This document shows positions 35,965 to 64,000 of a stretch of 64,000 nucleotides of DNA, one piece after another. The DNA comes from Caenorhabditis elegans. Its lineage: Eukaryota; Nematoda; Chromadorea; Rhabditida; Rhabditidae. Each line of letters starts with the position of its first letter. The first letter of the stretch is position 1. The notes beneath the pieces are model-generated. The model was not told where the DNA came from. It did not search any database and saw nothing but the letters and a program-made list of their open reading frames with translations. The DNA lies in assembly GCF_000002985.6 (NCBI RefSeq), contig NC_003279.8, forward strand, positions 9,300,001-9,364,000. The letters are read 5' to 3'. A program made the position numbers and the translations under genes.

Positions 35965-38900
35965 CTAGAAGACACGGATGCAATTGTTTCCGAAATCAAC
36001 GACGTATATGCGACCATCAGGTCCAACTGCCAAATCAGTGGGACGATCCAGAAGCTGACGTGGTGAAGGAGTCAGTGGAGTTGGAGCCGATGAAAAGGCT
36101 GGAGCACCGAATGGACCACCGAGAGACTGAAAAGTACAAATACAAAAACATTTCTTGAAATCAAAAACTAACCGAATACGGAGCCGGTAGCTCTTGTGGC
36201 ATTTGGAACCCAGAATTGGGGACGGGTCCAAGTCCAAATGAGCCAATGAATCTCATATCATCAGACGCAAAGACTTGAACTCGATTGTTCCGAGAGTCAC
36301 ATACAAGTATATGTCCCTCTGGATCAATCACAACTCCTTGTGGACGAACGAACATTCCATCACCATCTCCTTCACTTCCGTAAACCTTCATCTCTGACAT
36401 GTTTCTGGGCGATAGGACTGCGAGTCGGTGATTGTTGAAGTCGCTGAAAGAATTAAGGTTTTTAAAGGAAATATTAATATTTTCTCATACGTAATGAGTA
36501 ATTGTCCATCTGGCAGATAGCACAATCCACGTGGCGAGTCCAAGTTCTTGAAGAAGTAGGCGGAGTCAAATCCACATTTGCGAACGAATTGTCCCTGTGG
36601 TGTGAAGATCTGAACACGATGATTCCGAGTATCCGAGACGGCTATCGCATTATGAGAATTCGTGGCAACTCCCCATGGATAGTTGAAGTAGCCAACAGCA
36701 CGTCCACGATCTCCAAACTTGAGAAGGAACATTCCGTTTTCATCGAATACCTGGACACGATGATTATCTTTATCAGCCACCACAATATTGTTCAGAGAAT
36801 TGGTAGTTATTCCAGCAGGACGATCAAACTGTCCTGGACGATTTCCACTGGTTCCGAACTTTGAGATGAAATTTCCATCTTTGTCAAATATTTGAACACG
36901 ATTGTTGCTTCGATCAGCGACAATAACACGTCCTCTCTGATCAACACATATTCCCCATGGACGACATAATTCTCCGTCACCGGATCCTTCTTTTCCGAAT
37001 GTCAGAATTGGCCCTTTTGCTGCAATCTCATCATAGTTCCTGCCACGTCGAATATCCATTGTTGTCGGGCATCCACTGATTGGAGTTCCTTTGACAAGAA
37101 TATTCAGTGTGTAGGATCCTTCGATAGATGGATAATACGAGAGTGCGACGATTCCATTCTCACGGGGTCTGAAATTTTATTGTGTTTTTTTGGAAATAGT
37201 AGTCAAATCATACGTCATTGTGACCTCTACAGTTGATCCATCTGGTGAAATGACAAAAGCCTGTACATCAGAAGTTGGCATAGCTTGTTCCAAATGGGAA
37301 TGTGGTTCTTGATGAGGAAGAAGTGCTTGGGATGTTGGTTGAGTTGCAGCAATCGATGAAGACAACAGATCTCCACATGCATCGCGGAGTTGCACATAGA
37401 TCACTGTTTGACGCTCACGAATCGCTCTGAAATTTTTTTTTTTAAATAAAAATAATTGTTTGTTATAAAAATGATTCACATGTTTGGTTTTCCGCAAACT
37501 TCACTCTGATTTTGAAAAAAAATACAAAAATTAATTTCGAATTGCGACAAAAAGTGGTTACTGTAACGCGACCAATTTTTCCATTTTTCTTTATTTATGA
37601 TTCTAAAATTTAAATCGCGATTTTGCAAATTCTGATGCACTTTACCACATTAAAAAAGTCCTCCCTATAACTGTAAAAAAATTATCTAAATTTTCTATGA
37701 TTAAAAAAAAATTTTAATAGCAATAATTTTATACAATTCTATGAAAATTTACAAAAAATTTCCATATATCTGAAATCTGAACTAACTTTTTAAAAGAGTC
37801 TCCGACAATTGAACTATTCTTGGCACATGGCCCACTCTCAATATTTCCGAATTGTCGAGCTTTGTTAAGAAGAATTCCATCCTGTGGAGCTGTGAATTTG
37901 AGTCGATCGTCTTCATTCACCTGACATGCCAACATCAATACATTCAAAATATTGTTGTTTGGCTCGGTGCCCTCATTTCCCATTTGGCACGATGCCAACT
38001 TTTCAAATACTTGACGAAGAACCATCTCATCACAATCAGAACTATCCATCAACTTTGTTGCAGTTTGAATTGCTTGTTGTAAATCAATTTGCTTTGATTG
38101 AAGACTTTCTGCTTGTGAAATGAGAACTGACAGTTTCAGATTCTTCACTGTCTCCACCCTGAAATTAATTGAAAAGCTTAGTGATTGCAGATTTGAAATT
38201 AATAAACCTCTTGAGTAGTTCCTTTCGTCGTTCCTCCAAAGCGTTGACGTGTGTATCGAAAGCGGCTCGAATCTCGTTTTCAGCGGTCTGAAAATTGTGG
38301 AGATTATATAGTCAGTTTTTCGATTTCTCACTAAAAAACATAAAATTTCATAAAATAGTTTGTTTTTGCTAATTTTTAAATTTTTTTTTCGATTTCAATT
38401 TTTTTCTCTGCAAAAATCGAATGAAAAAGTTTGATGACACCATAGATCCAAACTCTATTTTTAAATAACAAAACGCATCGGACTGAAAATTATGAAAATT
38501 ACCGTTGCATTTGTAACAATTCCATCGATAATCTGCTTGATAGTATCACCAGTCTTCTCACATTGCCATTGCAATAATTGACTCTCATTAACAACTTCTC
38601 CAACAGCAACTCGAATATCTCCAAGTGGCTGAACTCGATGCTTTCCAGGATGTTGAGCAACACAGATTGCACACAATAGAACTGAATGAGGACAATTCTC
38701 ACAGATTCCAATGATTACTGAATCATGAGTTCCACACACAGAAGAGCTTCGAGGTGATGATTCTCCACTGCCAATTGAATCATTTTCAACGCCAGACACA
38801 TGTCCTGAAAAGAAAACTGAAACAGTTTGAATTACTGTAGAATATCTTCATATACCATCTCCACTTCCAACTGATCCAAGTGCTTGACGAACTGATCCTC

Positions 38901-41897
38901 CAACATTTTGAGTGTATTGCTGTGCTTGTTGTGGTTGAACTGCACGGCTCATCTGAAAATAATACTTTTAGATTTTAGAGGAATTACGTGTTCGCCGAGC
39001 AAAAAATAATACTATAGTGCAAAAAGAGCACCGGATGAGGAGCAGACACCTCTCTCTCTCTCGGCACTAAATTGGCCCTCCGACTGGCTTGTGAATAATG
39101 GCGAAAAAAGGTGGTTGAAGGAGAAGAAAAAGGGAAACGAACGCCTGGATGTTGAAAAATGGGAATTTCCTAGTACGTGGACATATTCGGATAGAAAAAT
39201 CTATAAACTTGTAAGGAAAGTATTTCAGCTCTGAAACTGCTTTCAGTAAATTGTTTTCTTCGAAATGTGGATTTTTGCAAGCTTTTGGTGATGTTTATGG
39301 TGTTTGGAGGTAAGCAAACACTCTGGGAGCTTTTTGGAACTTGGTTTTGTTTGAAAAATGTGAAACTGCTGACACAAGTTTCATTTAAAAATCTAAAAGT
39401 GAGCTGAAATACTTTCCTTGATAGTTTTCAAAAAGTTATTTTCAAGAAGTTTTACTAATGTAGTGGAACGGTCGGCAGCCAATTTTTGTGTTCTAATCCT
39501 GCAATCAGTTACTGATAAGACATTTAAAAACGGAAAAATACACCAAAAAAGTACTGATTCTGTGTTTTTTCTTGATTGACAGGAGTCATTGATTTATGAT
39601 TATTGCGTACTCTTTTTATGATTCCTGATTACAAACGATTCACGTCATCAAGCACGTGGAGAATCTTGAAACGGATCAAGGTGATATTAATATAGACCAC
39701 ATATATTATTTTTTGCTCCCAAACTACGGTATCATGTCTCAAAATGTCAATTTTTGTAAACTACAAAAAGGTGTGCGCCTTTAAAGAGTACTGTAGTTTC
39801 AAATTTTTGTAGCTGTGAATTTTCATCGATTTTTTATGGTTTTAATTTTTAATTTTAGGTTTTCGATAAATAAATATACAAATATTTAATGAAAAACAAT
39901 GGAAAAGTTTAATTACAGTACGTTTTAAAGGCGCATACTTTTTATGAATTTCCAAAAAAATAATTGTCGTGTTGAGACGCAAAAAGCGTGTAGTAACACA
40001 CGATAAGATAAAAACTAACCAAAGTAGCCATCAACTGCTGAAGCTCAACGAACGCATGTTGTTTGGTGGCTCGAACACGCTGATGAGCTTGAACACAATG
40101 AATACACAAAGCTTCCTGACATTGCATACAGTAGGCGAACGATCTGAAAAATTTAAATATAATTTAATTATCTTTGAAGTTTTAGGGGAAAACTAACATT
40201 TTCGATTCGCATCCTTGACATTGAATCGGACCCATTGGCTGTTGTTGTTGTGGCTGAGATCCAAGTGGTGAAGGAATTGGAAAAGTTTGCTGTGATTGTG
40301 AAGACATTGGTGTTGCCAATTGAAGACGTGGCGTCGAGCACATGGAATTACGTGGTGGAGCTATGGTTGCAGAATGTTTTGGAACATCTGGTGATGCCAT
40401 CAATGATGGTGGCATATGCATTGAAGTATTCGTTGGAGAGAGTGGAGAGAATACAGGAGTATCATCGTTCTGTAAAGAATACGAGGAATTAGGTGCAATT
40501 TCAGCTCGCAGGAGGGCGCATTTAGCAAAAAAAATTAGAAAAAAGACTTATTGAACTTATTGAAGCCAGGGAGAAAAATATGTTTCTTGGGAAGAGAGAA
40601 ATGCTAACTTTTTTTTGCGAAAAAAATGATTTTTGAAATATTATGGGGCCGTAGAAAAATGCTCATTTTTTAATCGAGGTCCACCCCCAGAAGTTGGGTC
40701 TCGTTAGGTATTGACGGCGAAACCGTAAATTGAACCATTTTTCGATTTGCGACCACATAATATATAACATCATAAATTCGGGAAATTGAATTTGTTTATA
40801 GCTCCACACTCCACAAAATTGTACTTTTCTCTGTTTGAAATTTGATAAAAACTGACCACTGCCAACGAATCAAACACATTTTGCATCAACATCGGCGATT
40901 GTTGCTGGTGTCCTCCGATGCTCGACAGATTATTGATAGAAAGCTGTGATGGTTGTTGCAATGGAGACCATGATGTCAAACTGCTGTCCGAGTCGGGGAA
41001 TCCAATTGGACGCATCATGAGCCCACCAGCAGACGATGGCATCCGTGCACCCATCACTGGAGACGGTGATCCAGGCATTCCACTGAGTGAGAATGAGAAT
41101 GCACGAGGTTGATGAAGTGGAGTTGATGCTGGAATTTGGGTTATTCTTCGGTGTAAATTGAGAATTAAAACATACAATTAATGTGATTATTCATCGTTGG
41201 TGTCGAACAATCCGACATCAGAGCTCCACGTGGCGGTGATGGAAGCGTCGGAGACAGGTACATCTGCGATGTAAAGTTGGCGGTGGCTGTCGATACGGCA
41301 CCACACAGCTTGCAAGCTAAAATTCATAAATCATACAGAAAGTTGAGATATTTATTTACCCCGTCGATCGTACGAGGACGGTGTCATCTGGTAGCATGAT
41401 TGGCACGTTCTAAAAATAATTGTCATTTTGATAATTTGTCTTGAAACCCCACTTGTGCGCACAAACGAACGGCAGCACTCCAATCGTCGAGCTCTTGGAG
41501 CAGACTGAGCACCGAAAGGAGTCTTGCGGGAGTCCGAGTCCGAATCCAGTGTTGAACTGGAACTGTGGTTGCTGCTGTGGTGACTGAATCATTGACGGTG
41601 GAGTGTCAAATAGTGAGCCAGTGAACTGTGGTGGTGGTGGTCCCGAGCCAAGATGATTATCCTGATGATGATGGTTTGGTGAATGCTCACCGCGATGGTG
41701 GGACATTGAGTCACCTGAAGTTGTTTCGTTGGAAGCTTTTTTTTCAATTTTCAAGTGTTACCTTCACTGCTGCTTCCGCCCATCGACAGCTCGTTTCCGC
41801 TGTCGTTGGCGTCCACGTCGATCTCAGTTTGAAGCCGACGAGGTCCTGATGGTGCTCCTTCTTCTTTCTCCAATGAGCATGGCACGATGGTCGCCAT
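35965..41897 (-). CDS. lin-41: TRIM-NHL RNA-binding protein LIN-41
   Basis: Heterochronic and oocyte regulator that binds and represses target mRNAs. Fifteen minus-strand coding exons (41762-41897, 41453-41714, 41360-41409, 41176-41316, 40857-41128, 40198-40469, 40020-40143, 38856-38952, 38503-38804, 38208-38287, 37787-38158, 37214-37426, 36491-37168, 36173-36443, 35965-36126) join in phase to 1143 residues. Domains in order: RING about 113-160 (FRCSVC, CAHKTC, CKLCG), a Ser/Pro/Gln-rich linker, B-box 1 about 370-415, B-box 2 about 474-515 ([18 protein letters not shown]), coiled coil about 520-690, filamin/Ig domain about 704-800, and six NHL repeats about 830-1143. Upstream noncoding exon(s) are expected. 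Small differences from the published isoform lengths may reflect alternative splice sites. Confidence 0.96.
39770..39990. repeat. two opposed dispersed-repeat copies in a lin-41 intron
   Basis: GGTGTGCGCCTTTAAAGAGT at about 39770 and, inverted, CAGTACGTTTTAAAGGCGCA near 39916, the latter followed by TGTCGTGTTGAGACG. Both match the uev-3 intron copy at 10571-10645. Together they form an imperfect inverted repeat of about 220 bp in the intron between the exons at 38856 and 40020. Confidence 0.65.
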
Positions 41898-44723: not shown

Positions 44724-47700
44724 TTAAAAATCATTTATTGTGATAAACTTGATTGCCTCACGAATCACGTTGGTCACTGCTTCTTTTGTACATTCTCCTC
44801 TGTAAATATTTTCAAAAAATGCTCGGCTTCAAAATAAAAGATAAACTCACTCAAAAGGTGGAATATGAATAAGAAGTGTATTGATCGGTCGTTCACGGAG
44901 GGATAAGTAATACAAATAACCGCCAACTGATCTAAATTGCAATCATTAAAAAAAGCAAAAAAAAAAATTAAAAAGAAAACAAACCTTCCCGGTTCCTGAG
45001 ACTTCCCAACTGTTAATCCACCAAATTTTTCTCCATCTAATCCACACTTTTCAGTGACATCTTCTATCAAAAAATCAAAATCAATAAATGGCTTTAATGA
45101 CTTTCTATCATCCGCATCTTCATAATTTTCAGAGGAAATCGTATTTCCTTCTGGAACGAATCCATTCACATCTTTCTTAACATAACCATCTGAGAATGCT
45201 TTTTCCTCGAAAAGAACTCTGTTTTTGACAGAGTGTGCAGCAAGATGGAGCACTTCCTGAACAAACAATATTTACTGGTGTTGCATTGGATAAGATATTA
45301 TTTAAAAAAATAAATTAAATCTCTCTAAATAAAACCAAAAAATGTTTTACTTTACCAGATGATTTCTTATATTTTTCTTTGTGAGTTACAGTAACTCTAT
45401 CATACCACTACCCTGAACTATCAATACTCTACAACGTGACGTCTTTAGATGATATTTTTTGCTATATCTTGCATGGGTCTCGTCATGCGCACAAATGATT
45501 ACTGTACTGATTGTGAGTACTTTTTCCACTTCTACGACTTTAAAGAGGGTGTAATGGTCTACTGAAAACATTATCACCTTTATACTTCTACGAAATAAAA
45601 AGTTTGTGTCTAAGTGATTATTTTCAGTGTGAGTTAATGAATAGGCATATAGTTAAAGAATGAGAGTACAGTTGTTATATTTACAATCAATATTGTCAAA
45701 ACTCACATCCGGATATTTTTCTCTCAATTCTGGGACTTTTTCTGCAACTGTTTCATATGAAACCGGGAACTTGTGAACCGTAAATCTGACGTCTGAAAAT
45801 AAATTAATTCGAGATATTTTATTCCTGCGGGGATGTTTTAAATATGAAATTGTCTTTAATTTGAAATAAAATTCCGTCTCTTAAAATCTAAAAGCGCATG
45901 ATTAGTAGTTGGTCTATGACATAATTAGATCTAATACCTAAACTTGAGCAGTCTCATTTTTAGTTTCAAAAAATATTTTTTTTCCTAATGAAGTATCTTC
46001 GTAATGAAGGTAATGATTAGCAGAAACAAAAAGCCAACAAGATAGATGGAAAAGAAAACCAATTATTTTTTATAAGGGATTTATGAGATGTGTTGAGGAT
46101 TAAGTGAAAAATAAAGATTTTTAGATTTTCCTCTTTACAATTAAATATACAGTGCGTCCAACTTCTATAGCACCCCCCCCCCCCCCCCCCTCCAATTCGG
46201 CCGTTTGTTCAAAATTTTTTTGGAAAAGTGTTAGTGCAGTTCGATAGCAAATGTTGAAAAACCTATGCTCCCCAATTTTTATCATGATATCTCAAAAATC
46301 ACGGAAATTAGGTCAAAATATCTGAAAAATGGCCGTCCAACTTCTATAGCACCCCCTCTGATTTTTGACAAATTTCTGAATATTCGGGGTTTTCTTCGTA
46401 GTTAATGAATTTATTTTGTAAATAACTTCACACCAAAATAATCAGGTGGTTTCACTTTCACATTTAAAAAATAAATATAACACTTGGAAACACGTGGAAT
46501 GCCTGGGATTGTCCTGGAACGTTCTTATTTGCTTCAGAGGCCATATCTCGGCTCCCAATGATTTTCGCAGCACCAAAATTGATCAAAATGTTCTTCTCCG
46601 TCTATTCATTACTATGTAATTAGTTGTAGAAAGCATTTATTCATATGAACCAAATGATAAAGGGAGCAACTTCAGTGGTTTTTAAAAGGTTCGATTTAAC
46701 CATGAAAACGAGCGTTCGGAGGCGCAGAGATAATGGTTGGGAATACATTTTCGACTAAAAATTACTACATTATAGCAAAAATTAAAAATTATTTTATATG
46801 AACAACAAATCCGTGGAAATCCATGGGTAAATCAGATGCCAGACATCTACAATCGCAGGTTCAATGTTTTGTCTGGTAGATTTTGCATTACTTGACCAAA
46901 AAAAGATTCAATGAGCGAATTCGCTAAATTTAAAGGGGGAGTAGAGTTTGTGGGGAAATATATGTTTCTGACTCTAATTGTGCTCCTGATACCGAATATC
47001 GATGTGAAAAAAATTAAAAAAATTTCCCTGATTTTATATTAATTTTTAAAATCCGCAAATCCATTGGATGCCTATATGTGAAATTTCAAACGCAAGATTT
47101 TCCCGCCAGAGACGCCCCGCCCACGAAACCGTGCCGCACGTGTGGGTTTACGAGATTAATTTTTTCCTTCTATTTTTATTCAATTTTATGCCGATTTTTT
47201 CCATTTTTTCGCTGTTTTATATCGAAAATGTTGTTATTTAACGTTAATTTATGCCTTTTTATTGATAAAAATCAACAATATTCCATGTAAAGGAAAAAAC
47301 AATAACAAAAAAAAACAAAAATTGAAGTTTGTCCTTGGGTGCACTACGAATCAACGTATTCCGGATATCTGGAATGTTAAATGTTTGTATTAATGTGGAG
47401 AACTTTCGTTATTGTGATTTGTAAAGGAAATATGATGAGTATTTGGATGAAAATTGGAATTTACAGACTAAATCGACAAACTGTTGATTTTTTAAAGATG
47501 TTTTAGGCCTAATTTTTTAGCGAACGGAATGCTTTTCACTTTTAAATTGTTTTTTGAAAATGTTTTTTAAATGAAATGCTCACTTTTCCTAGAAACGTTG
47601 TGTCGCCGTAATTTTCCTTGTTTTCCGTCGATTTTGTGCTGAAAATGGAACTTTACATGGAATTTTGTTGATTTTTATCAATAAAAAGGCATAAATTAAT

Positions 47701-49665
47701 GTTAAATAACAGCATTTTCGATATAAAACAGCGAAAAAATGGAAAAAATCGGCATACAATTAAATAAAAATAGAAGGAAAAAATTAATCTCGTAAACCCA
47801 CACGTGCGGCACGGTTTCGTGGGCGGGGCGTCTCTGGCGGGAAAATCTTGCGTTTGAAATTTCACATATAGGCATCCAATGGTTTTGCGGATTTTAAAAA
47901 TTAATATAAAATCAGGGAAATTTTTTTAATTTTTTTCACATCGATATTCGGTATCAGGAGCACAATTAGAGTCATAAACATATATTTCCCCACAAACTCT
48001 ACTCCCCCTTTAACTTGAGTTATAAATACAACTAGCAAAATCGTCATTTGGAAAGGTATATCTTACTTTTCTGTCTAAAATTTTCGAATGTTAGCTTGAA
48101 AAAAAGACTTGCGGCTCTTTTTTGAGCGGTCTCATGATCTTTTCCGTATAAATTTTCAAAGACTTCTATTCAAAATCGAAGCTTCAAAGACATTTGAGCA
48201 GGATGAGCGGAAGTTCTGTACAATACGAAATCAAAACCTTCAGCTCTGCGCCTCCGAACGCTCGTTTTCATGGTTAAATCGAACCTTTTAAAAACCACTG
48301 AAGTTGCTCCCTTTATCATTTGGTTCATATGAATAAATGCTTTCTACAACTAATTACATAGTAATGAATAGACGGAGAAGAACATTTTGATCAATTTTGG
48401 TGCTGCGAAAATCATTGGGAGCCGAGATATGGCCTCTGAAGCAAATAAGAACGTTCCAGGACAATCCCAGGCATTCCACGTGTTTCCAAGTGTTATATTT
48501 ATTTTTTAAATGTGAAAGTGAAACCACCTGATTATTTTGGTGTGAAGTTATTTACAAAATAAATTCATTAACTACGAAGAAAACCCCGAATTTACAGAAA
48601 TTTGTCAAAAATCAGAGGGGGTGCTATAGAAGTTGGACGGCCATTTTTCAGATATTTTGACCTAATTTCCGTGATTTTTGAGATATCATGATAAAAATTG
48701 GGGAGCATAGGTTTTTCAACATTTGCTATCGAACTGCACTAACACTTTTCCAAAAAAATTTTGAAAAGCTCCAAACGGCCGAATTGGAGGGGGGTGCTAT
48801 AGAAGTTGGACGCACTGTATGTTAAATGTGAAATAGCGCCAGAAAATTGTTCAAAACTACTCGTATGGTACAAAACATCAATGGTTCCAAAAATTTTCTG
48901 AAATTTATTTTTTGCGATCAGAAATAAACAATTATTCCGTTTCCGCCTATCATAATTTTGGAAGTTGACCGAAAAAGGCGATATACATATATCATAGGGC
49001 TTCAAACATGCAAGAATACCTTGAATATTAAAAAAAAAAAGGTTTTGTTCAAAAGTTGATCAATTGTCAAAGTTTTGAAATATTAGAGTGTTTTACTAGT
49101 ATTTAGGTATTTGGTTTTATTCACCCGTTTTGAACATAAATATTTTAACACTTCATCGTTTAACTCGGAACACTCAACTTACTCTCTATTTCTTCTTTAA
49201 GTAGTTCATCAATTACAACCGACGATGGGTTGTAATCCAAATCTTCAAATTGACCATCAAATGCTGAACACTTTCTATGCTTTTTTATATGTAAGAGAAG
49301 AACACTTACCTGTGATGACAACATCTCTGGTGTACTGAAAATTATTATTTAATTTTTTTTCATTAGAAAGTCTTACCTGATGATCCACTAGAATCCTATC
49401 ACACGCTGGTGATATATTCATTGTATTTTCTGCATCCTCTATGTTTTCCTTATCTTCCTGAAAAATGTTAACGCGTGAAAAAGAAGAGTTTTTATAAAAT
49501 TGGGTCAACTTACTTGATTTCCAATTGGAATTGGATCGGAAACTGGAGTCATTGTCATCATGCTTCTTTTTTTTGTCTGGAAATGAAAATATTAAACAAG
49601 AATTGTTATTATCAGGAACAAGAGCACTGAGAGACAAGGTCAATTTTGTCACCAGTACTCATCAT
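44724..49665 (-). CDS. pyroglutamyl-peptidase-I-like protein, paralogue A (catalytic Cys lost)
   Basis: Peptidase C15 fold. Secure minus-strand exons: 49377-49457, 49310-49334, 49183-49263, 45707-45792, 44985-45256, 44851-44931 and 44724-44799. An upstream piece (49514-49577) and a first exon from an ATG at 49665 (MMSTGDKIDL...) are probable; the 5' splice choice is uncertain. The N-terminal loop, TGFGPF in true enzymes, reads TAFDGQFEDLDYNPSS. The Glu of LFEEKAFSDGY is kept, as is His in LLIHIPP. The catalytic RYLC block, however, reads RSVGG, with Gly in place of the nucleophilic Cys. It is therefore predicted to be inactive as a peptidase. The 3390-bp intron 45793-49182 contains a 2.7-kb foldback element. 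It is the most downstream of three tandem same-strand paralogues. Confidence 0.82.
46173..46190 (+). repeat. 18-base poly-C tract
   Basis: Eighteen consecutive C residues in the left arm of the foldback element. The mirrored position of the right arm has only six G. A G-tract of this length on the complementary strand can form a G-quadruplex. Confidence 0.95.
46931..48012. mobile_element. 1.08-kb palindromic element nested in the foldback transposon
   Basis: Ends TAAAGGGGGAGTAGAGTTTG and its inverse, with arms of about 350 bp each (to about 47290, and from about 47655). The loop is about 360 bp. The outer DNA on either side (46745-46930 and 48013-48244) is not mutually complementary, so this palindrome is best read as a separate insertion in the loop of the larger element. 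TA at both edges is compatible with a TA target duplication. Confidence 0.78.
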
Positions 49666-50361
49666 TTTGATAACTGAAGTTTTCTGTCATTTTGAGAGCT
49701 TTATCTTTGAGATACACAAGCAGACACCTCGGAGGGTGGGCACATTATCACATGAAGATAGTTGTTTGTTTGTTTGTTTAAAAGTTTAAATTCCACGTGG
49801 GTGAACTTATGTTCTTTTAGAAATCAAGATGATCCTTTGCTGAAAATCAAACATTTGGAAATCAAAAAGTTATTTTGAGATACTTTTTCAATGTCATGGG
49901 GGCAGAATTTTTATAATCACAAATTAAAAGGTGACCTATCATTTGTTGAATGACTCTCTCCAACAAAAAATTTGGAATAAAACCGATCGGAAAAAAAAGT
50001 CGCATCAGACAACTTCTCAACCAACTCTAGCCACTTTTGGTTTTGGCAATTATATCTAAAGTTGGTTGAAAAGTTGCGGCAAATTCGCAAGCTTATTTGA
50101 GACTTTTCCTGTTCCTGACCGCAAAATAATCTAATTTAAATTTTCTTGAAATTTTCCGAATCTTCCAGACATTCCATTATGTCCCTATAGCTCCCAGTAA
50201 AAAATGGCTGTTAGACGTTTTGCACGCCTCTCGGAGAATGTACTCTTTCATTATAAATGTTAAACAAATTGTTGAAAATATAACCAATTTATTCAGAAAT
50301 CAGAAATCTGGAAATCGAATAAAAAATCAAAAAATTTCGTGTAAATTTTAGTTTATTGGCT
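49666..50361. other. intergenic between paralogues A and B
   Basis: AT-rich. A small imperfect inverted repeat (ACAACTTCTCAACCAACT near 50008, inverse near 50060) and a (GTTT)n run near 49762 are the only structures noticed. The paralogue A promoter is expected here. Confidence 0.5.
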
Positions 50362-52598
50362 TTATGTGGCAGCATCAATAATTTCTTTAACAACATTGAC
50401 AACGGCTTCCTTTGTACATTCTCCTCTGCAATAATGTGTTGAAAAATGATTTTTCATAATTAAAAAGACAACATTTGGAAGGGCGTTCAAGACAAGACTT
50501 TGAGATCTTGCGTTCAAGACAAGACTTTTTTCTGAACTGACCCAAATGGCGGAACATGGATGAAAATACTATTCTTGGTACTTTTTTGAAGTGATAGATA
50601 ATAAGAATATGCTCCAATTGATCTATAAGTTTTTGTTAAATGCTCAAAATTAAAAATAAACTTACCTTCCTGGATCTTCAGACACTTCAACTTTCAATCC
50701 TCCAAACTTTACCCCATCTAATCCACATTTTTCTGTCACTTTCTTCACCACATCCATACAGTCTATGATAGTTTCCAGGGTATTATCAACACTTTCACAT
50801 GAAACTTTATTTCCTTCTGGTAAATATCCTTTTTCATCTTTTTGATGATATCCACTTTGAAATGCTTTTTTTTCCACATAAATTGTATTCTTCACCAAAT
50901 GAGTCTCAAAGTGAAATGCCACCTCAAATATTTCAAAACTATTATACAGGGTGACCCATAACTATGGAGACTGGAGTAGACGTTCACCTAGTTTTTGAGC
51001 ACGTATTACTTTTTTGAACGCTGTAGATTTTTGAGTCTGGACGTTTCGAAAATAGTTATTTACACATAAATTCTCACATTTTTAATGCACAAAAAAATTG
51101 GAACCTCATAACTTGCAACAGTATGCGTTTTTAATATTTTTCCACAAAGGGAAGAAAAGTTAATATGATTAAATGTCAATATTATCAAAAAAATCCCTTA
51201 CCTTCCCTGCTATGTAATGGGGTTATTCAAGTAATGTAGCAAAATGTATTAAAATACATTTGTGACGTCACAAATGTATTTAAATACATGTTTTTATATA
51301 CTTGAATAAGGTTGTGACGTAATTTTTCTACACTTTTTAATTTTCCGACACTACTTGAATAACCCCATAAAGTAGAATGTAATATTTTTTTGAATTTTCA
51401 GATTAAACTTTTTTGTATTTAATAGAGAGTAATAAAGTGCGTTTCAATACGAACTCTCAAACTAAAAACATTTCAAAAATCATTTTGAGACCTCTGAGAT
51501 CTGAAAGAGCAACTAGAAAGGACAACAGAAAGCAAATAATCCACGAAGATGCGTGCCAGCGACATTTTTAAAAGGTTTACTGCTTCATACAAGTTGATAA
51601 TTTAAAAGCGTAATTTCATATTTTGCTTATTACAGTGTGGTTAACAATATCCGATTGCTAAAAGAATTAGGGAATGCTTACATCATATCTCAAGAGAGCC
51701 AAAAACTGTCTCCATAATCAAGGGCCATGTAATTAAAAAAGGATACTTACAACTCCAGGGCATTCAAATAATTCATCAATTTTCTGTTTTAATGGATCAT
51801 AGGATAACGGAAATTTGATGAGGAAGATCATCTTGTCTGAAAACTTCATTTGTTTCAGCATTTTATTAACTTCTAAATTAAGATATAAAAAAGAAACTGA
51901 CCAGAATATTGTTCAGAGCAAATTTGTTCCATGACATCATTGGATGGATTTGTCGCATTTTCAGAGGTTTCAAAACCAACTATTGCTATTCCTTTTATCT
52001 GAAATAATGATAATTCAGCAATTTTTGTTGTAGAAATTTGAAAAAATTGTTTTCTAAAATTGGAAAATGGATATTTCTGGAATAAAAAAGTTTTTTTAAT
52101 ATTAAATGTTTTTTTTTTGGAAAATTGAAAAACGAAATTTTTTTTTTTCGATTTCAGGAAAAACTCCAACTTTTAATATTTTTTAGGCGTTTTTTTGTTG
52201 AAAATTTTTTTTCTAATAAAGAAACACCATATTTTCAAAAAAAACATCGTTTTTTCTCATACTTAATAAAACTTTTGATTAAAAAAATCGGAAATTTGCA
52301 AAGTCTTGTTTTCAGTAAAAAGTACAGGGCTTTATATACGGTGGTTTCTGATTTTTTTATTCAAACAAACTTGTTTTGTTCACATACCATCACAACTTCA
52401 CGAGAATGTGGAAATGGAATATCACACATTGTCAAAATATCTGAAATCTCTCCTTCGCATCCTACCTGGAAAAATAACTTAACCCTTTCAGTTAATAAAC
52501 TCACAAACATCCAAAACTGGAAATACAACAGTTATTTTTTAAGTTTCAAATCATAGTTTTACCCTTATGATCTTCAAAATGAAACTTACCCCCATCAT
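50362..52598 (-). CDS. pyroglutamyl-peptidase-I-like protein, paralogue B (catalytic Cys lost)
   Basis: Seven minus-strand exons (52590-52598, 52388-52465, 51902-51998, 51751-51836, 50666-50922, 50542-50622, 50362-50425) give 223 residues. Exon 1 is only 9 bp, coding MMG. The C15 TGFGPF loop has decayed to VGFETSENATNPS. E107 (IYVEKKAF) and H198 (IFIHVPPF) match the catalytic Glu and His positions, but the nucleophile block is RSIGA instead of RYLCx, so the Cys is Gly (G179). The helix after the active site, ECTKEAVVNVVKEI, is well kept. The intron 50923-51750 carries a mariner TIR fragment and a 150-bp MITE. A non-peptidase role is inferred; the fold assignment rests on the strong similarity to paralogue C. 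Confidence 0.85.
50946..51010. repeat. mariner-type terminal repeat fragment
   Basis: ACAGGGTGACCCATAACTAT preceded by TAT resembles a Tc1/mariner terminus but differs from the element at 570-1855. No matching inverted end was found nearby, so it looks like a relic or a solo end. Confidence 0.55.
51218..51367. mobile_element. 150-bp MITE, copy 2
   Basis: Same length and termini as the copy at 15722-15871, again flanked by TAA on both sides, with only a few base differences (for example TGTATTAAAATAC against TGTACTTAAATAC). It is inserted in intron 4 of paralogue B. Confidence 0.9.
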
Positions 52599-52962
52599 TT
52601 TTAAATTGAAACAAAAGTTAGAGATTTGGTGGGGCCAAAACTTTTCTCTGCAACGTGATAGTAGTGTCTTTGAGAGATATATTTTCTTATAGCTGTCTGA
52701 ACAGAAATGTGTGTATCTTTTATCGAATGAAATCGAAATCAATATTTCTTTGAAAAGGCGCACCATAAATCATTTTTAGTGGCATTCTCTGAGCTAAAAT
52801 TACTTTATCAAAAACCACTATCTTTTCAAACTAGCTGCCCGTGATTTTCTGTCGAATCCAGTTTACTAAAATTAACTTTCAAGAGAAATTTCGAAAATTT
52901 ATATAAACATAATATCACAGTAAAAAAATCTAAATACTTCTTGACCCAAAGAATTATCACAT

Positions 52963-54612
52963 CTAGAATGCAAATAAAATAGTATTTATAGTTTCTCGAA
53001 TAACCTCGGTCACAGCTTCTTTTGTGCATTCTTCTCTGAAAAAAAGAAGTTCATTCAAAAATGAAAAGGATTTCACTCACTTAAAAGCTGGAACATGGAT
53101 AAAAAGTGACTTTGAGCAGTCTTCATGAAGAGAGAGGAAATACGAGAAACCGCAGAGATATCTGAAATATGTAATAAGGGAAATAATATTGTAAATATAC
53201 ATCAATTTTATACAGAGCACAGAGCTTTTACAGATGAAATTATGTCAGTTGTATGAAAACCGTTTGAGAAGTTCATAAAAATAAATTAGCTGCCTAGGGG
53301 GCGTTTAGAACTAGAAAAAATCAACCAAAAAATGTTTCAGTTAATTTTTTCAACAAACCAGAAAAATTGAAAAAAAAATTCAAAATTCAAAACTTCTCAA
53401 AAATACACAAACCTTCCGGGATCTTCAGACTTTTTGACACATAATCCACTGTATTTCTGTCCATCCAATGCACATTTCTCAGTAACTTTGGTTACCAAAA
53501 AATCACAATTAATACATGAAACCAGAGTCTCGTGTTCACTCGAACATGAAGTCTTATTATCAGCTGGAGTACATCCGTTTACATCATTACTACAGTAACC
53601 ATTCGAGAATGCTTGTTGCTCGAATTTAATAGTCTTCTCAACTGGATGAGCACCAAGGTGGATTACCAACTAAAAATGTAGCTCTATAATTTAATTTATA
53701 ATAATATTCACGTACATCCGGTTTATGCTCATTCCACAGCTCCGGAACTTTCTTGCTTACATCCTCATAAGCAACTGTAATCTTGTGAAGCTCTAGGTCA
53801 ACTCCTGAAATTATTTGAGTTTAAGATCTTCTGTCAACTAATCAATGGTTTAAAAAATGTTTTAAAATTGAAGGAGCGTTTAAAACTAAATTTTTAGAAA
53901 CTTATTTCTGTCCAACTTTTTTGAAAAATAGCATTCTTGCAAGAACCTCCGCAATCTTTGAAAGAAAAAAATGAATACATCTTTATAATATAAAAATCAT
54001 AGAAACACTTTTTTTGGTCCACTTTCAAAATTGTTATAACTGAGCACAGCAAATAAAAACATTCAAAACTCGCACTTTCTATTTTAAAAGTAAGTTTGTA
54101 AAACTTACCACTAATTCCATTTTTCGTGAGCTCGTCAATTATAATAGAAGACGGATTTTCTTCTTCAAAGCCCCGAAATGGTCCGAATCCTAAAAAATTT
54201 AGAACAGATATTTTTTCAAAACAATTTGGCAAAACTGACCCGTAACGACAACTTTCTTCTTCATTGGAATTGGCTGAAAAATAGGATAATAATGACAGTT
54301 TGCATAAGTTAATTTATTATAATTTTTTTCTAATAGTAAAGATGAATTAAATTCTAAAAATCTGAATTTTTTAAAGAAAAATAAGAATTTTATTAAACAT
54401 AAAGTTGATACAAGAACACAGTGACCCTCACAATAAATAAATATACAAATAACCAACAGAGCGTACTTGCATACACATTTTCCCGTCACTTACCACTGTT
54501 TCCATTCCTGGATTGCACATTGTCAGCATATCACCGAGTTCACCCGTTACATTCATCTGAAAATATTAATATATATATCAGATATACAGTAGTATGTACT
54601 TACGCCCATCAT
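52963..54612 (-). CDS. pyroglutamyl-peptidase I (C15 cysteine peptidase) paralogue C, active site intact
   Basis: Removes N-terminal pyroglutamate from peptides in the cytosol if active. Eight minus-strand exons (54604-54612, 54494-54556, 54240-54273, 54109-54189, 53716-53804, 53413-53669, 53081-53161, 52963-53035) give 228 residues; the family is about 210. The VVVTGFGPFRGFEEENPSS substrate loop is canonical. The likely catalytic triad is E109 (IKFEQQAF), C181 (GRYLCGFSYF) and H200 (LFIHVP); the Cys-His spacing of 19 equals that in vertebrate enzymes. As in paralogue B, the first coding exon is a 9-bp micro-exon encoding MMG. It is the only member of the tandem trio predicted to be catalytic and is probably closest to the ancestral copy. 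Confidence 0.9.
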
Positions 54613-59152: not shown

Positions 59153-62100
59153 ATGTCATCGGCTGTTAAACTTGCTGATCGGTACGTTTTTTATCATTTT
59201 TTGTAGGTTTCCGGGCAAAAGGAGAAAGTGTAGAGTTCACAAAGTTCTGAATACAAAAACTAATTGCAGGTGAAAAATTTGTTTAGATGTTAATACCAAA
59301 AAGTACACCCAATAATATATTTTAAAAATGGAAAAAAAAGTATTTGTAACGGTGTGTAAAGATGTTCGTCGATTAAGGTGTTCATAGTTGTAGTCAATGA
59401 TTCCAAAGATTATTTAAATGTCAGGATATGGCCAGTTGAATGTTAAGTAACTGTAGTAGGGTACTGTCCTGAGTTTATTTTTTTTTAACCAGTTTTATGC
59501 TCCAAAATTGTGTTATTGCCGGAATGCCTTTATGGCAAAACTGTGTTGTACCACAAATTAAGTGAAATCAAAATTTAGGGCGTTCATATTAGCGCCCGTC
59601 GAGCGCGCCACGCTGTTACGCCGCAGAAAAGTGGTGAGAGGCAGAAAAATAGACTTTTTTGAAATTTTTTAAAATTTTGAGATTATAGTTTTGACAGTTT
59701 TTGCAAGAGATTGTAGTTTATGAGTTTTCTCTTTTTTTCTTGGGTGCCCACCGAATTCATTAGTTTAACGCAAAAATCTATTTACTTGTTCATCTATTTT
59801 GTCTACCAAATACACAATAAATTCTTCCTCTTTTCTGTCTGCAATTATGACGCCACGGATTCGCAGAAAAACGAATATTGCCAGTTTCCGTATTTTTCAC
59901 ATTAGTGGGGATTATATCCTCTGTATTGTTATGTCTATTTATTTTTTATTATCGTCAAAAACAGACAATATTTTTAGATATCTGATGACAAAAAGGCTTG
60001 GAGATGGAACATTCGGTGAAGTTATGCTTGCAAAGAAAATAGACACTGGTGATCGAGTTGCAATTAAAAGGTGTGTAGTTGAATGGATCCAGATAATAAT
60101 GCCCAGACTATTTAAAGTTTTCAATCATTTTAGTTCGTTTTGCACGAAATTCATGTTGTTTGATAAAACTTAATGAGAATTAGTTTTTTGCAGAATGAAG
60201 AAAAAGTTCTACAGTTGGGAAGAAGCAATGAGCTTACGAGAAGTGAAATCCCTCAAAAAACTCAATCATCCGAATATTATTAAATTGAGAGAGGTAAGAG
60301 AAAACTCAGAAAGATTAGATTTCGTTGCGAAATATTCATGCATAAGTCACAAAAATACGAAAATCTGAACTCAAAAAGTAATATGACTCTCTCTGATTAA
60401 TTTTTAGCCAATTTTTTTTTCAAAATGCACATAATCATTCTCAAAACTATATAGTCAAACATACAACTTTTAAACTACGGAAAGAGTCGAACATTCGGAA
60501 ATATGAAAATTTTGAAAAACTAAAGTGACTTATTTTTTCCATTTTCATAGTCCTAGTGATGGTTTAGAATGGCGACTACTGTAGTGTTACTGTAATGGTT
60601 TGGTGAAGGTACTGAAAATAGTACTGTAGGATTACTGGAACTATTCTGAAAATCCGTTCAAAGCTTTTGAGGGAAGACTGAGTTGAGTGTCATAACACTG
60701 CAGAGCCTCTGAGGAATCACTGTCCTGTAGAGTTACTGTAGCTACACTGTAAAATTTTAGAAACTTCTTGAATTCTCTAGATGCTTTTGAAAAACTTGTA
60801 AAAACTCCTTCAATATTTATGAAAAAATTTTAAAATGGACAATTGGATGCATTTTCTGTAGTTGTACAACAAATAAATAAATAATTGAAATCCCATTTTG
60901 CAGGTAATTCGTGAAAATGACATTCTCTACTTTGTGTTCGAGTTTATGCAAGAAAATCTGTACGAGCTAATGAAAGATCGTGATCGTTATTTTCCGGAAA
61001 GTGTTATTCGAAATATAATATATCAAGTACTACAAGGACTTGCATTCATGCATAAAAATGGATTCTTTCATCGAGATATGAAACCCGAAAATATAATGTG
61101 TAATGGAACAGAACTTGTGAAAATTGCTGATTTTGGATTGGCACGAGAAATCAGATCAAAACCACCATATACAGATTATGTATCAACAAGATGGTATAGA
61201 GCACCTGAAATTCTTCTGAGATCTACTTCATACAACTCACCAATTGATATGTGGGCATTGGGATGCATTATGGCAGAACTTTATATTCTAAGACCACTTT
61301 TCCCTGGAACTTCTGAAATGGATCAATTATTCAAAATAATATCAATTCTTGGAACTCCAAATAAGGTTCGTTCTTTATTATGACGGGGTGGAAGCAGAAT
61401 TTTTCTTCATTTCCCCACGAACATACCTTAGCAATCCGTGAACTCTGTTACAAATTTAACAAGTAGAGAACACCAATAGACTGATCACATTTATTCAATA
61501 TATTAATAATTTCAGGATGAATGGCCAGAAGGTTATCAATTAGCTTCAGCAATGAACTTCCGTTTCCAACAAGTTGTAGCAACACCAATGGAACAGGTGA
61601 GCATTGTTCGAGTTTCATTTTTAATAAAATTTATTTAAAAACTGTAATTCCACATTGCTTTCCAGGTTGTGAACACAATAAGTAAAGAAGGAATGAAATT
61701 AATGATGGATATGATGCTTTGGAATCCAGAGAAACGTCCGAATGCTAATCAATCACTTCGCTATAAATATTTCCAAGTTGCTGAAAAGTTGGGTGCTCCA
61801 GTTGTTAGTCAACCAGCTCCTGGAAGTATTCGAAAGACAAGTGCAGCTTCAGTTAAAAGTGATACGAAAGCAATGACAGCTAAGGCGGCAAAGGTTGGTT
61901 ATCACTAATTTTTTTTGCTGAACAATGATGCAGCTGTAATTTGAAGTTAATCGAATCTTCAAGATATTTAAGGAAATAAGCATTACTTTTTGTAGATGGT
62001 AGAAATTATTTCCAGACTTACAGAGAATCTATACAATAAAAAGTAGACATTTCAGAAAGATTACATTGGATCAGAAAATGTGTCTCCTCAACAACCAGCC

Positions 62101-64000
62101 AAAGTTATTGACCGTCACATAAATCGCAATCTACCTCTCAATAAGGAAACTCTTTTTGAAAAGTAGGTTGCATATCTGTTCTACAGTTGATTCGCGACGT
62201 CCAGGGATCGGACGTTGCAAGTTATCAGTGTCTTACTAAACTAGAATTATTCAGAAAAGTTAAGACTTACATTCACAAATTACAATTTCAGATCAGATAA
62301 CAAGCCTCTGGGACCAACAAAATCAAATGAAGCAAAGCCGACAGCAAAGGAGATATATTTATCAAAAAGCAAATATGTGCCCGGTACTGTCAAAAATAAA
62401 TTCAAAAAATCTTGTAAATTATGAAAATTATGTTTTCCTTATTTTGTAAGTATTTAGTTTTTTTCAACGTAGTTTTAAGCCATAATGCTCACTTTCAAAG
62501 CCTTCTCTATTACATTTGTATAATTTATTTTTAAGCTTCAACATATTAAAGTTATAAAAATTATTTATTCAGTAAAATGGTTGGACTTGCTCATACCTTA
62601 TTTGAATTGTGATTGTTCAATTTTTTAAAAATTGGTATTACTTACAAAAATCTCCCTAAGTTTCTATATTTTCTTGTCCTTTCTATTTCTTTCAATTTTC
62701 AGGCCAAGTATCCAAAGACACTCATCAAAATCAAATAATGACAACAAATGGATTAACTGGAACAACTAAAACGACAACATTTTCTGCAAAAAAAGAGGGT
62801 CGAACGGCAGTTCAAACAAGGTTCGAGTATGCGTACGGTTCGTCGTTTTGTTCTTCTCATAAATCTCTCTTTTTGTTTGTTTTTTTACTTCCTTTTGGCG
62901 CATGCCTTTCTTCCCAATATTCTTAGTGTTTGCAATTGCTTTTGTTCGATCAAAGATTTTATAGCAAAACTGATATATCTATGAAAAAAAATCTGCCAAA
63001 AAGGTCAATGTAATACTTCTAACTATATAATTAGCCGAAAACTTGAGAACATAGTTCTATTTTTTGGAAATTGTTCCAAACCGCTCATGGTGCTGAAATA
63101 TCCAAAAATCATAATAAAACAAAGACGTTTTTTGACATTTTTTATTTACTATTAGAGTCAAATAGTAGTTATAGCTCTTTTTCACTAATCATAATTTTGG
63201 AAGTCGAGAAAGTTATTCCTCCAAGTTTTATATTTTCATTGTGTTTTAAATGTTCGTATTTAAGCATTCTGGGGGTCGAACCTGCAGCAAATCTCGAAAT
63301 TACTCAAGATGACCATAGTTTTGTAAAATATGGAAATTTTCCAAAACCAAAGTTTTTTTTAACTAAATTTTTTTGTGTTTTATTATCATATTTGGTGAAG
63401 TCGGACTATTACATTTGTACTTAGACTAAACACCAAACAAAAAAGTTGAGTTGTGAAAATTAAATTGATAGTTTCAACTATCAAGAAAATTTTCGCTTTC
63501 TAATGTTTTTGAAAAATAAGTCACGTCTCGTTCGCACCATTTTTTTTGAATCCTTAACGTTCAGAATTTGAACCTCTGAAAAATTGAAATATATCTTTTT
63601 TAATTTGAAATTAATAGTCTTGTGGTGTCGATTTTGATAACTAATGAGATTGTAATTCTATGAGAGTGACCGAGTTTTCTCTTTTATAAGCACGTTTAGT
63701 TTAGACACTATAAAGTTACAACAAATCTTTTTTCTGATTTATCATATTCCTATTTTTTTCATTCATTTCCCAATATAGTTTTCATTCCTAATTTTTGTTT
63801 TTTAACTTTGAAATTACAGGTTACATCCCAAGCTTCGGAGCAAGACAGACGGGACCAACAGTGTCGAATCAAACAAATAATCATTCAGCAAATAATTCTC
63901 ATTCACCAAATAAAATGAGTAATACGGGTCGAGTCGATTGGGCAGCCAAGTGAGTCTTTTTTTCGAGTTTTCCAAATTTGAAATGCTTTCAGATATGTAA
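59153..64000 (+). CDS. dyf-5: MAK/ICK-type ciliary protein kinase (3' end beyond window)
   Basis: Ser/Thr kinase that limits cilium length and controls intraflagellar transport motors in ciliated neurons. Exons seen: 59153-59181, 59978-60070, 60194-60293, 60904-61365, 61516-61596, 61666-61893, 62056-62162, 62292-62383, 62703-62837, 63820-63949 and 63993 onward. These give about 488 residues before the window stops. The kinase domain is at about 11-295: glycine loop GDGTFGEV at 18-25, ATP lysine K40, HRDMKPEN from 130, DFG at 150-152 and the TDY activation motif at 164-166, typical of MAK/ICK/MOK. The C-terminal tail is Asn/Ser/Thr/Lys-rich and low in complexity. It is truncated by the window edge, not by mutation. 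Symbol recalled from M04C9.5. Confidence 0.94.

Follow-up and report, generated by a model that had tools for sequence, protein, structure and literature searches.

The window, a stretch of 64,000 nucleotides of Caenorhabditis elegans DNA on a contig (C1) that we take to be chromosome I, contains a tandem array of three genes, here termed paralogues A, B and C, all on the minus strand. Spliced models were assembled by manual splicing and checked by script; the frames of all three models were open, and every intron had GT-AG ends. The outer limits of the trio, given by the stop codon of A at 44724 and the start codon of C at 54612, coincided with those of an earlier sequence-only reading of this DNA. 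Paralogue C (52963..54612) encodes 228 aa in 8 exons (54604-54612, 54494-54556, 54240-54273, 54109-54189, 53716-53804, 53413-53669, 53081-53161 and 52963-53035). Paralogue B (50362..52598) encodes 223 aa in 7 exons (52590-52598, 52388-52465, 51902-51998, 51751-51836, 50666-50922, 50542-50622 and 50362-50425), the acceptor of the fifth being unusual (tttgag). Paralogue A (44724..49561) encodes 249 aa in 8 exons (49514-49561, 49377-49457, 49310-49334, 49183-49263, 45707-45792, 44985-45256, 44851-44931 and 44724-44799).

The exon carrying the positions of the catalytic Cys and His was 81 nt long in all three genes (44851..44931 in A, 50542..50622 in B and 53081..53161 in C, minus strand). An alternative exon restoring an RYLC motif in A or B, the case that the sequence-only reading had set against itself, is unlikely because little space is available in the introns beside this exon, which measure 53 and 51 nt in paralogue A and 43 and 116 nt in paralogue B. 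A genome pattern search located an N-terminal motif, GELGDMLTMCN in C (54512..54544, minus strand) and GEISDILTMCD in B (52421..52453, minus strand); in C it lies upstream of the part that can be aligned with C15 peptidases.

The fourth intron of A (3,390 nt) contains a palindromic repeat of about 2.7 kb (46131-48836), with two pairs of arms, 46208-46751 against 48222-48765 and 46924-47292 against 47651-48019, each pair 98% complementary. The end stretch of the palindrome had at least 45 matches in the genome, counting itself and both arms of each copy, which makes the palindrome a repeated element; it may be a non-autonomous DNA transposon. On the left side of A, minus-strand open frames at 37729-41757 have clustered Cys and His residues resembling B-box zinc fingers; these frames may belong to lin-41.

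Active-site residues and substrate loop of the trio

The catalytic residues of C15 peptidases, which we take from the C15 literature to be Glu, Cys and His, were located by aligning the trio with the solved C15 peptidases 6ltq and 1iof, to which A, B and C could all be aligned, and with 80 prokaryotic relatives, the best 80 of at least 494 confirmed. The relatives had been fetched with the patterns [LV]TGFEPFG and DN[DE]G..., and the Cys, His and Glu positions lie outside these patterns. The three columns were E, C and H in 80/80 of these best relatives. The motif TGFxPF was also present in 80/80 of the best 80 of at least 494, a figure that is biased since the motif is part of the retrieval pattern.

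Paralogue C resembles pyroglutamyl peptidase I (C15, PF01470) in having Glu, Cys and His together with TGFxPF, its motifs being TGFGPF, KFEQ, RYLC and IHVP. The corresponding motifs are TAFDGQF, LFEE, RSVG and IHIP in A and VGFETS, YVEK, RSIG and IHVP in B. A and B thus keep Glu and His and differ from the C15 enzymes in the absence of the catalytic Cys, which is replaced by Gly, with Ser in place of the Tyr/Phe two residues before it. These assignments, as proposed in the sequence-only reading, were confirmed by the splice models and the C15 alignment, and the GT-AG spliced models likewise supported its claim that long open frames had been retained in A and B despite loss of the Cys. The further claim that both genes had lost the TGFGPF substrate loop was correct for B, in which VGFETS no longer contains TGFxPF, but not for A, whose loop is one residue longer than that of C and retains both Phe residues. 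The TGFxPF loop of active enzymes was nevertheless found in C and in neither A nor B. Judged from these residues, A and B are unlikely to cleave pyroglutamyl peptides, because the nucleophile is absent and the pocket is altered.

All three proteins matched the PF06162 (PgaPase_1) profile, with 97.5 bits for A, 235.9 for B and 101.5 for C against a cut-off of 24.4. With PF01470 (C15), C scored 48.9 bits, above the cut-off of 22.7, A scored 15.7, below it, and B had no match. A search of the whole genome with PF01470 returned no match, probably because exons were scored separately. A scan of viral contigs with paralogue C found no relative.

Family copies on chromosome V

A genome profile search with PF06162 detected at least seven further copies, all on a single contig (C5) that we take to be chromosome V, at 3.287 (V2), 3.289 (V1), 3.355 (V3), 18.199 (V4), 18.202 (V5), 18.208 (V6) and 19.736 Mb (V7). 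Genome searches with the A, B and C proteins recovered the same loci and, beyond the family loci, a single stretch on contig C6 that scored at chance level (E 0.998). The family therefore comprises at least 10 copies in C. elegans, of which the trio is only a part, the rest lying outside the window on another chromosome. The PF06162 scores of V2, V4 and V7 were 286.3, 213.7 and 230.7 bits, above the cut-off, and none of these three matched PF01470.

Catalytic Glu, Cys and His were all absent from 7/7 of the chromosome V copies, as determined by alignment for V1, V2, V4 and V7 and by eye for V3, V5 and V6 (the frame being partly shifted for the last two). All seven have RN(L/I)DG in place of RYLCG, Arg in place of His (Gly in V7) and Val or Phe in place of Glu. 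PF06162 is named "putative pyroglutamyl peptidase," yet 9/10 of the C. elegans copies found have no catalytic Cys. Paralogue C would be, from its residues, the only copy that could still cleave off N-terminal pyroglutamate.

The models of V1, V2 and V7 were open throughout. V4 has a stop after PPLE, and its last exon is apparently damaged; V3 lacks the middle exon; in V5 the 81-nt exon is reduced to 77 nt and in V6 the 257-nt exon to 243 nt, each with a resulting frameshift. The present splice models use weak exon 2 donors (gttcgg) in V1, V2 and V3; under these models, 4/7 chromosome V copies thus carry lesions or are truncated at the end, a pattern of birth and decay of gene copies. A 9-nt first exon, ATGATGGNN, followed by a donor (ATGATGG, then two bases, then the donor), was found in 9/10 family copies and was absent from A. 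The degenerate N-terminal pattern GE(I/L/M)xD(M/I)(L/F)xMC(N/D) had eight matches in the genome, in B, C, V1, V2, V3, V4, V6 and V7, and 0 matches in a reversed-genome control; V5 has a near match and A has none. Near the C terminus, CTKE was encoded in frame by A, B, C, V1, V2 and V7 and was readable outside an intact model in V3, V5 and V6.

The Ser shared by A and B raised the question of whether these proteins are still hydrolases whose nucleophile has moved from the Cys to the Ser of GRS(V/I)G, giving a serine hydrolase within the same fold. GxSxG is a signature of serine hydrolases, and A and B have G-R-S-V/I-G, with the Ser two residues before the Cys position, together with the retained Glu and His. 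Furthermore, V1, V2, V4 and V7, which have no catalytic Glu or His, also have no such Ser and carry Glu for the first Gly. However, the nucleophile of the C15 fold lies two residues later, the unchanged length of the 81-nt exon gives no visible shift of register, and the substrate loop has changed. Such a pattern also arises easily, because its first Gly is ancestral (present in 80/80 of the best 80 of at least 494 relatives). A relocated nucleophile is therefore considered highly improbable.

Constraint on copies without the catalytic cysteine

Pairwise codon models were compared with omega = 1, with 2dL as the statistic. Neutrality was rejected for C and A (omega 0.203, dS 2.35, 2dL 42.3) as well as for C and B (2dL 66.2) and A and B (2dL 92.0), in both of which dS was saturated (about 22). 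It was likewise rejected for V2 and V4 (omega 0.157, 2dL 49.0), V2 and V7 (0.203, 44.2), V1 and V4 (0.272, 30.2), V1 and V7 (0.366, 19.5) and V4 and V7 (0.452, 10.0). Neutrality was not rejected for the recent pair V1 and V2 (omega 0.609, 2dL 3.1).

Branch tests were performed on A, B and C with 217 codons and on seven taxa (the trio with V1, V2, V4 and V7) with 177 shared codons on a single arrangement, (C, A, (B, V)). The three-taxon tests against omega = 1 gave 2dL values of 25.2 for the B branch, whose length was at the upper bound, and 9.2 for C; with seven taxa these were 5.4 and 4.9. The B-branch test is weaker than its 2dL implies because synonymous sites are saturated and the branch length is at its bound. 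For the A branch alone omega = 1 was not rejected (2dL 2.1 with three taxa and 0.1 with seven). Among the branches of V1, V2, V4 and V7, all of them triad-less and V4 with its damaged last exon, omega was 0.375 and neutrality was rejected (2dL 40.4), and the V stem gave a 2dL of 6.6 with its length at the upper bound. These results showed constraint in the absence of an active site in V1, V2, V4 and V7 and indicated that selection outlasted the active site in these copies. Constraint without the catalytic Cys is likely for B and is indicated only indirectly for A. The suggestion of the sequence-only reading that A and B had been kept by selection was thus supported by the pairwise comparisons and the B branch, with the V copies in agreement; the A branch taken alone gave no rejection of neutrality.

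Survival of the frames under neutral drift was simulated from today's sequences with an assumed base composition, in 2000 runs per level. At 0.05, 0.1, 0.2, 0.4 and 0.8 neutral substitutions per site, A remained open in 340, 77, 7, 0 and 0 of the 2000 runs and B in 335, 81, 10, 0 and 0. Long neutral drift of A is thus improbable given its open frame, and the 77 open runs at 0.1 per site leave room for a recent loss in this gene.

These data bear on whether A, B or both might be recent pseudogenes, or duplicates under drift, in which stops have yet to arise. Such an origin would fit the A-branch test and the broken models of V3, V5 and V6, along with the damaged last exon of V4. Against it are the absence of any open frame among the simulations of either gene at 0.4 substitutions per site, the rejection of neutrality in the pairwise tests and the GT-AG ends kept in all introns. 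Moreover, the loss would be old if the TCA Ser codon and the SxG common to A and B were inherited. Recent pseudogenization is on balance rather unlikely. Retention of A has further points against it beyond its branch test, namely the missing N-terminal motif and 9-nt first exon. Overall, A and B are probably C15-like pseudopeptidases that have been retained in the PgaPase_1 family of C. elegans.

History of the cysteine loss and possible roles

Trees were built with 14/80 of the prokaryotic relatives plus 6ltq and 1iof, both with all columns and with the catalytic columns masked. The best rooted tree from all columns was (C,(A,(B,V))), with a p-AU of 0.792. The nodes of all trees were weakly to moderately supported, the values for all columns being 74/63 (B+V) and 78/67 (A+B+V). 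The p-AU values of other arrangements were 0.425 for (C,(B,(A,V))), 0.459 for ((A,C),(B,V)), 0.46 for (B,(V,(A,C))), 0.438 for (V,(B,(A,C))) and 0.0668 for (V,(C,(A,B))); ((A,B),(C,V)) was rejected (p-AU 0.0145). With masking, A tended to join C (A+C support 93/73). The best tree was then (V,(B,(A,C))), with a p-AU of 0.643; two others, ((A,C),(B,V)) (p-AU 0.714) and (B,(V,(A,C))) (p-AU 0.558), had almost the same likelihood, and the p-AU of (C,(A,(B,V))) was 0.601. Trees restricted to the worm copies gave B+V support of 43/55 and 55/58.

Individual characters conflicted. One intron, which interrupts the codon following the T of TGF, is common to A and C and absent from B and the V copies, an extra Asp in the loop is common to A and the V copies, and the TCA Ser codon is common to A and B. 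In the 81-nt exon identity was highest between A and B (14/27, compared with 11 and 12 of 27 with C); A and C were closest in exon 4 (13/25) and exon 5 (15/29), and in exon 6 all pairs were equal (42/86). If C branched first, one loss of the Cys would suffice for A, B and the V copies; with A as the sister of C, the Cys would have to be lost twice or the 81-nt exon exchanged between A and B. The sequence-only reading had proposed that a single inactivation preceded the split of A and B. The corresponding tree, (C,(V,(A,B))), was allowed (p-AU 0.258 with all columns and 0.24 with masking) but not preferred, and in view of the conflicting characters a sisterhood of A and B with a single loss before their split was not established by these comparisons.

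Pseudopeptidases, among them inactive ADAMs, iRhoms and alphaMPP, are well described as a kind (PMC11266112). A and B would resemble the pseudopeptidases described there in that a catalytic residue is gone and the protein is retained, and differ in belonging to the cysteine-peptidase family C15. As pseudopeptidases, A and B may keep the fold and act by binding or scaffolding. One option is that a partner is contacted through conserved noncatalytic parts, candidates being the N-terminal GExxDxLxMC stretch, present in B but not in A, and the CTKEAV tail, present in both. The other is that A or B would attach to C as an inactive subunit. A specific form of the latter, in which A and B are inactive partners that tune the peptidase activity of C in mixed oligomers, is a special case of the pseudopeptidase reading, so that the likelihoods of the two overlap. 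The tandem arrangement of the three genes on one strand would suit such a pairing, and 13/15 of the C15 chain sequences listed come from four-chain entries, which is compatible with an oligomer but is no proof of one. The seven other copies are, however, unlinked to C, and regulation of C through mixed oligomers appears unlikely.

The chromosome V copies have gone further than A and B, having lost the whole active site. If the pseudopeptidase reading is correct, PF06162, whose members are labelled peptidases in Pfam, would be mostly noncatalytic in C. elegans, and its annotation would need to be changed. One genome would furthermore hold a graded series, from a full site through loss of the Cys to loss of the whole site, which would be useful for studying the conversion of an enzyme into a binding protein.

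A search of titles and abstract openings in the open-access literature found no report of a function for the trio genes, nor any measurement of activity or protein for paralogues A and B. M04C9.2 is reported as upregulated under simulated microgravity and M04C9.1 is entered as "No expression" in a table of Wnt-regulated genes; neither name could be matched to A, B or C. The other M04C9 literature found concerns M04C9.5 (dyf-5). Two published primers for dyf-5 matched the window exactly at 59331-59351 (plus strand) and 63084-63103 (minus strand), spanning 3,773 bp, in agreement with the published length of the fragment (PMC1794439).
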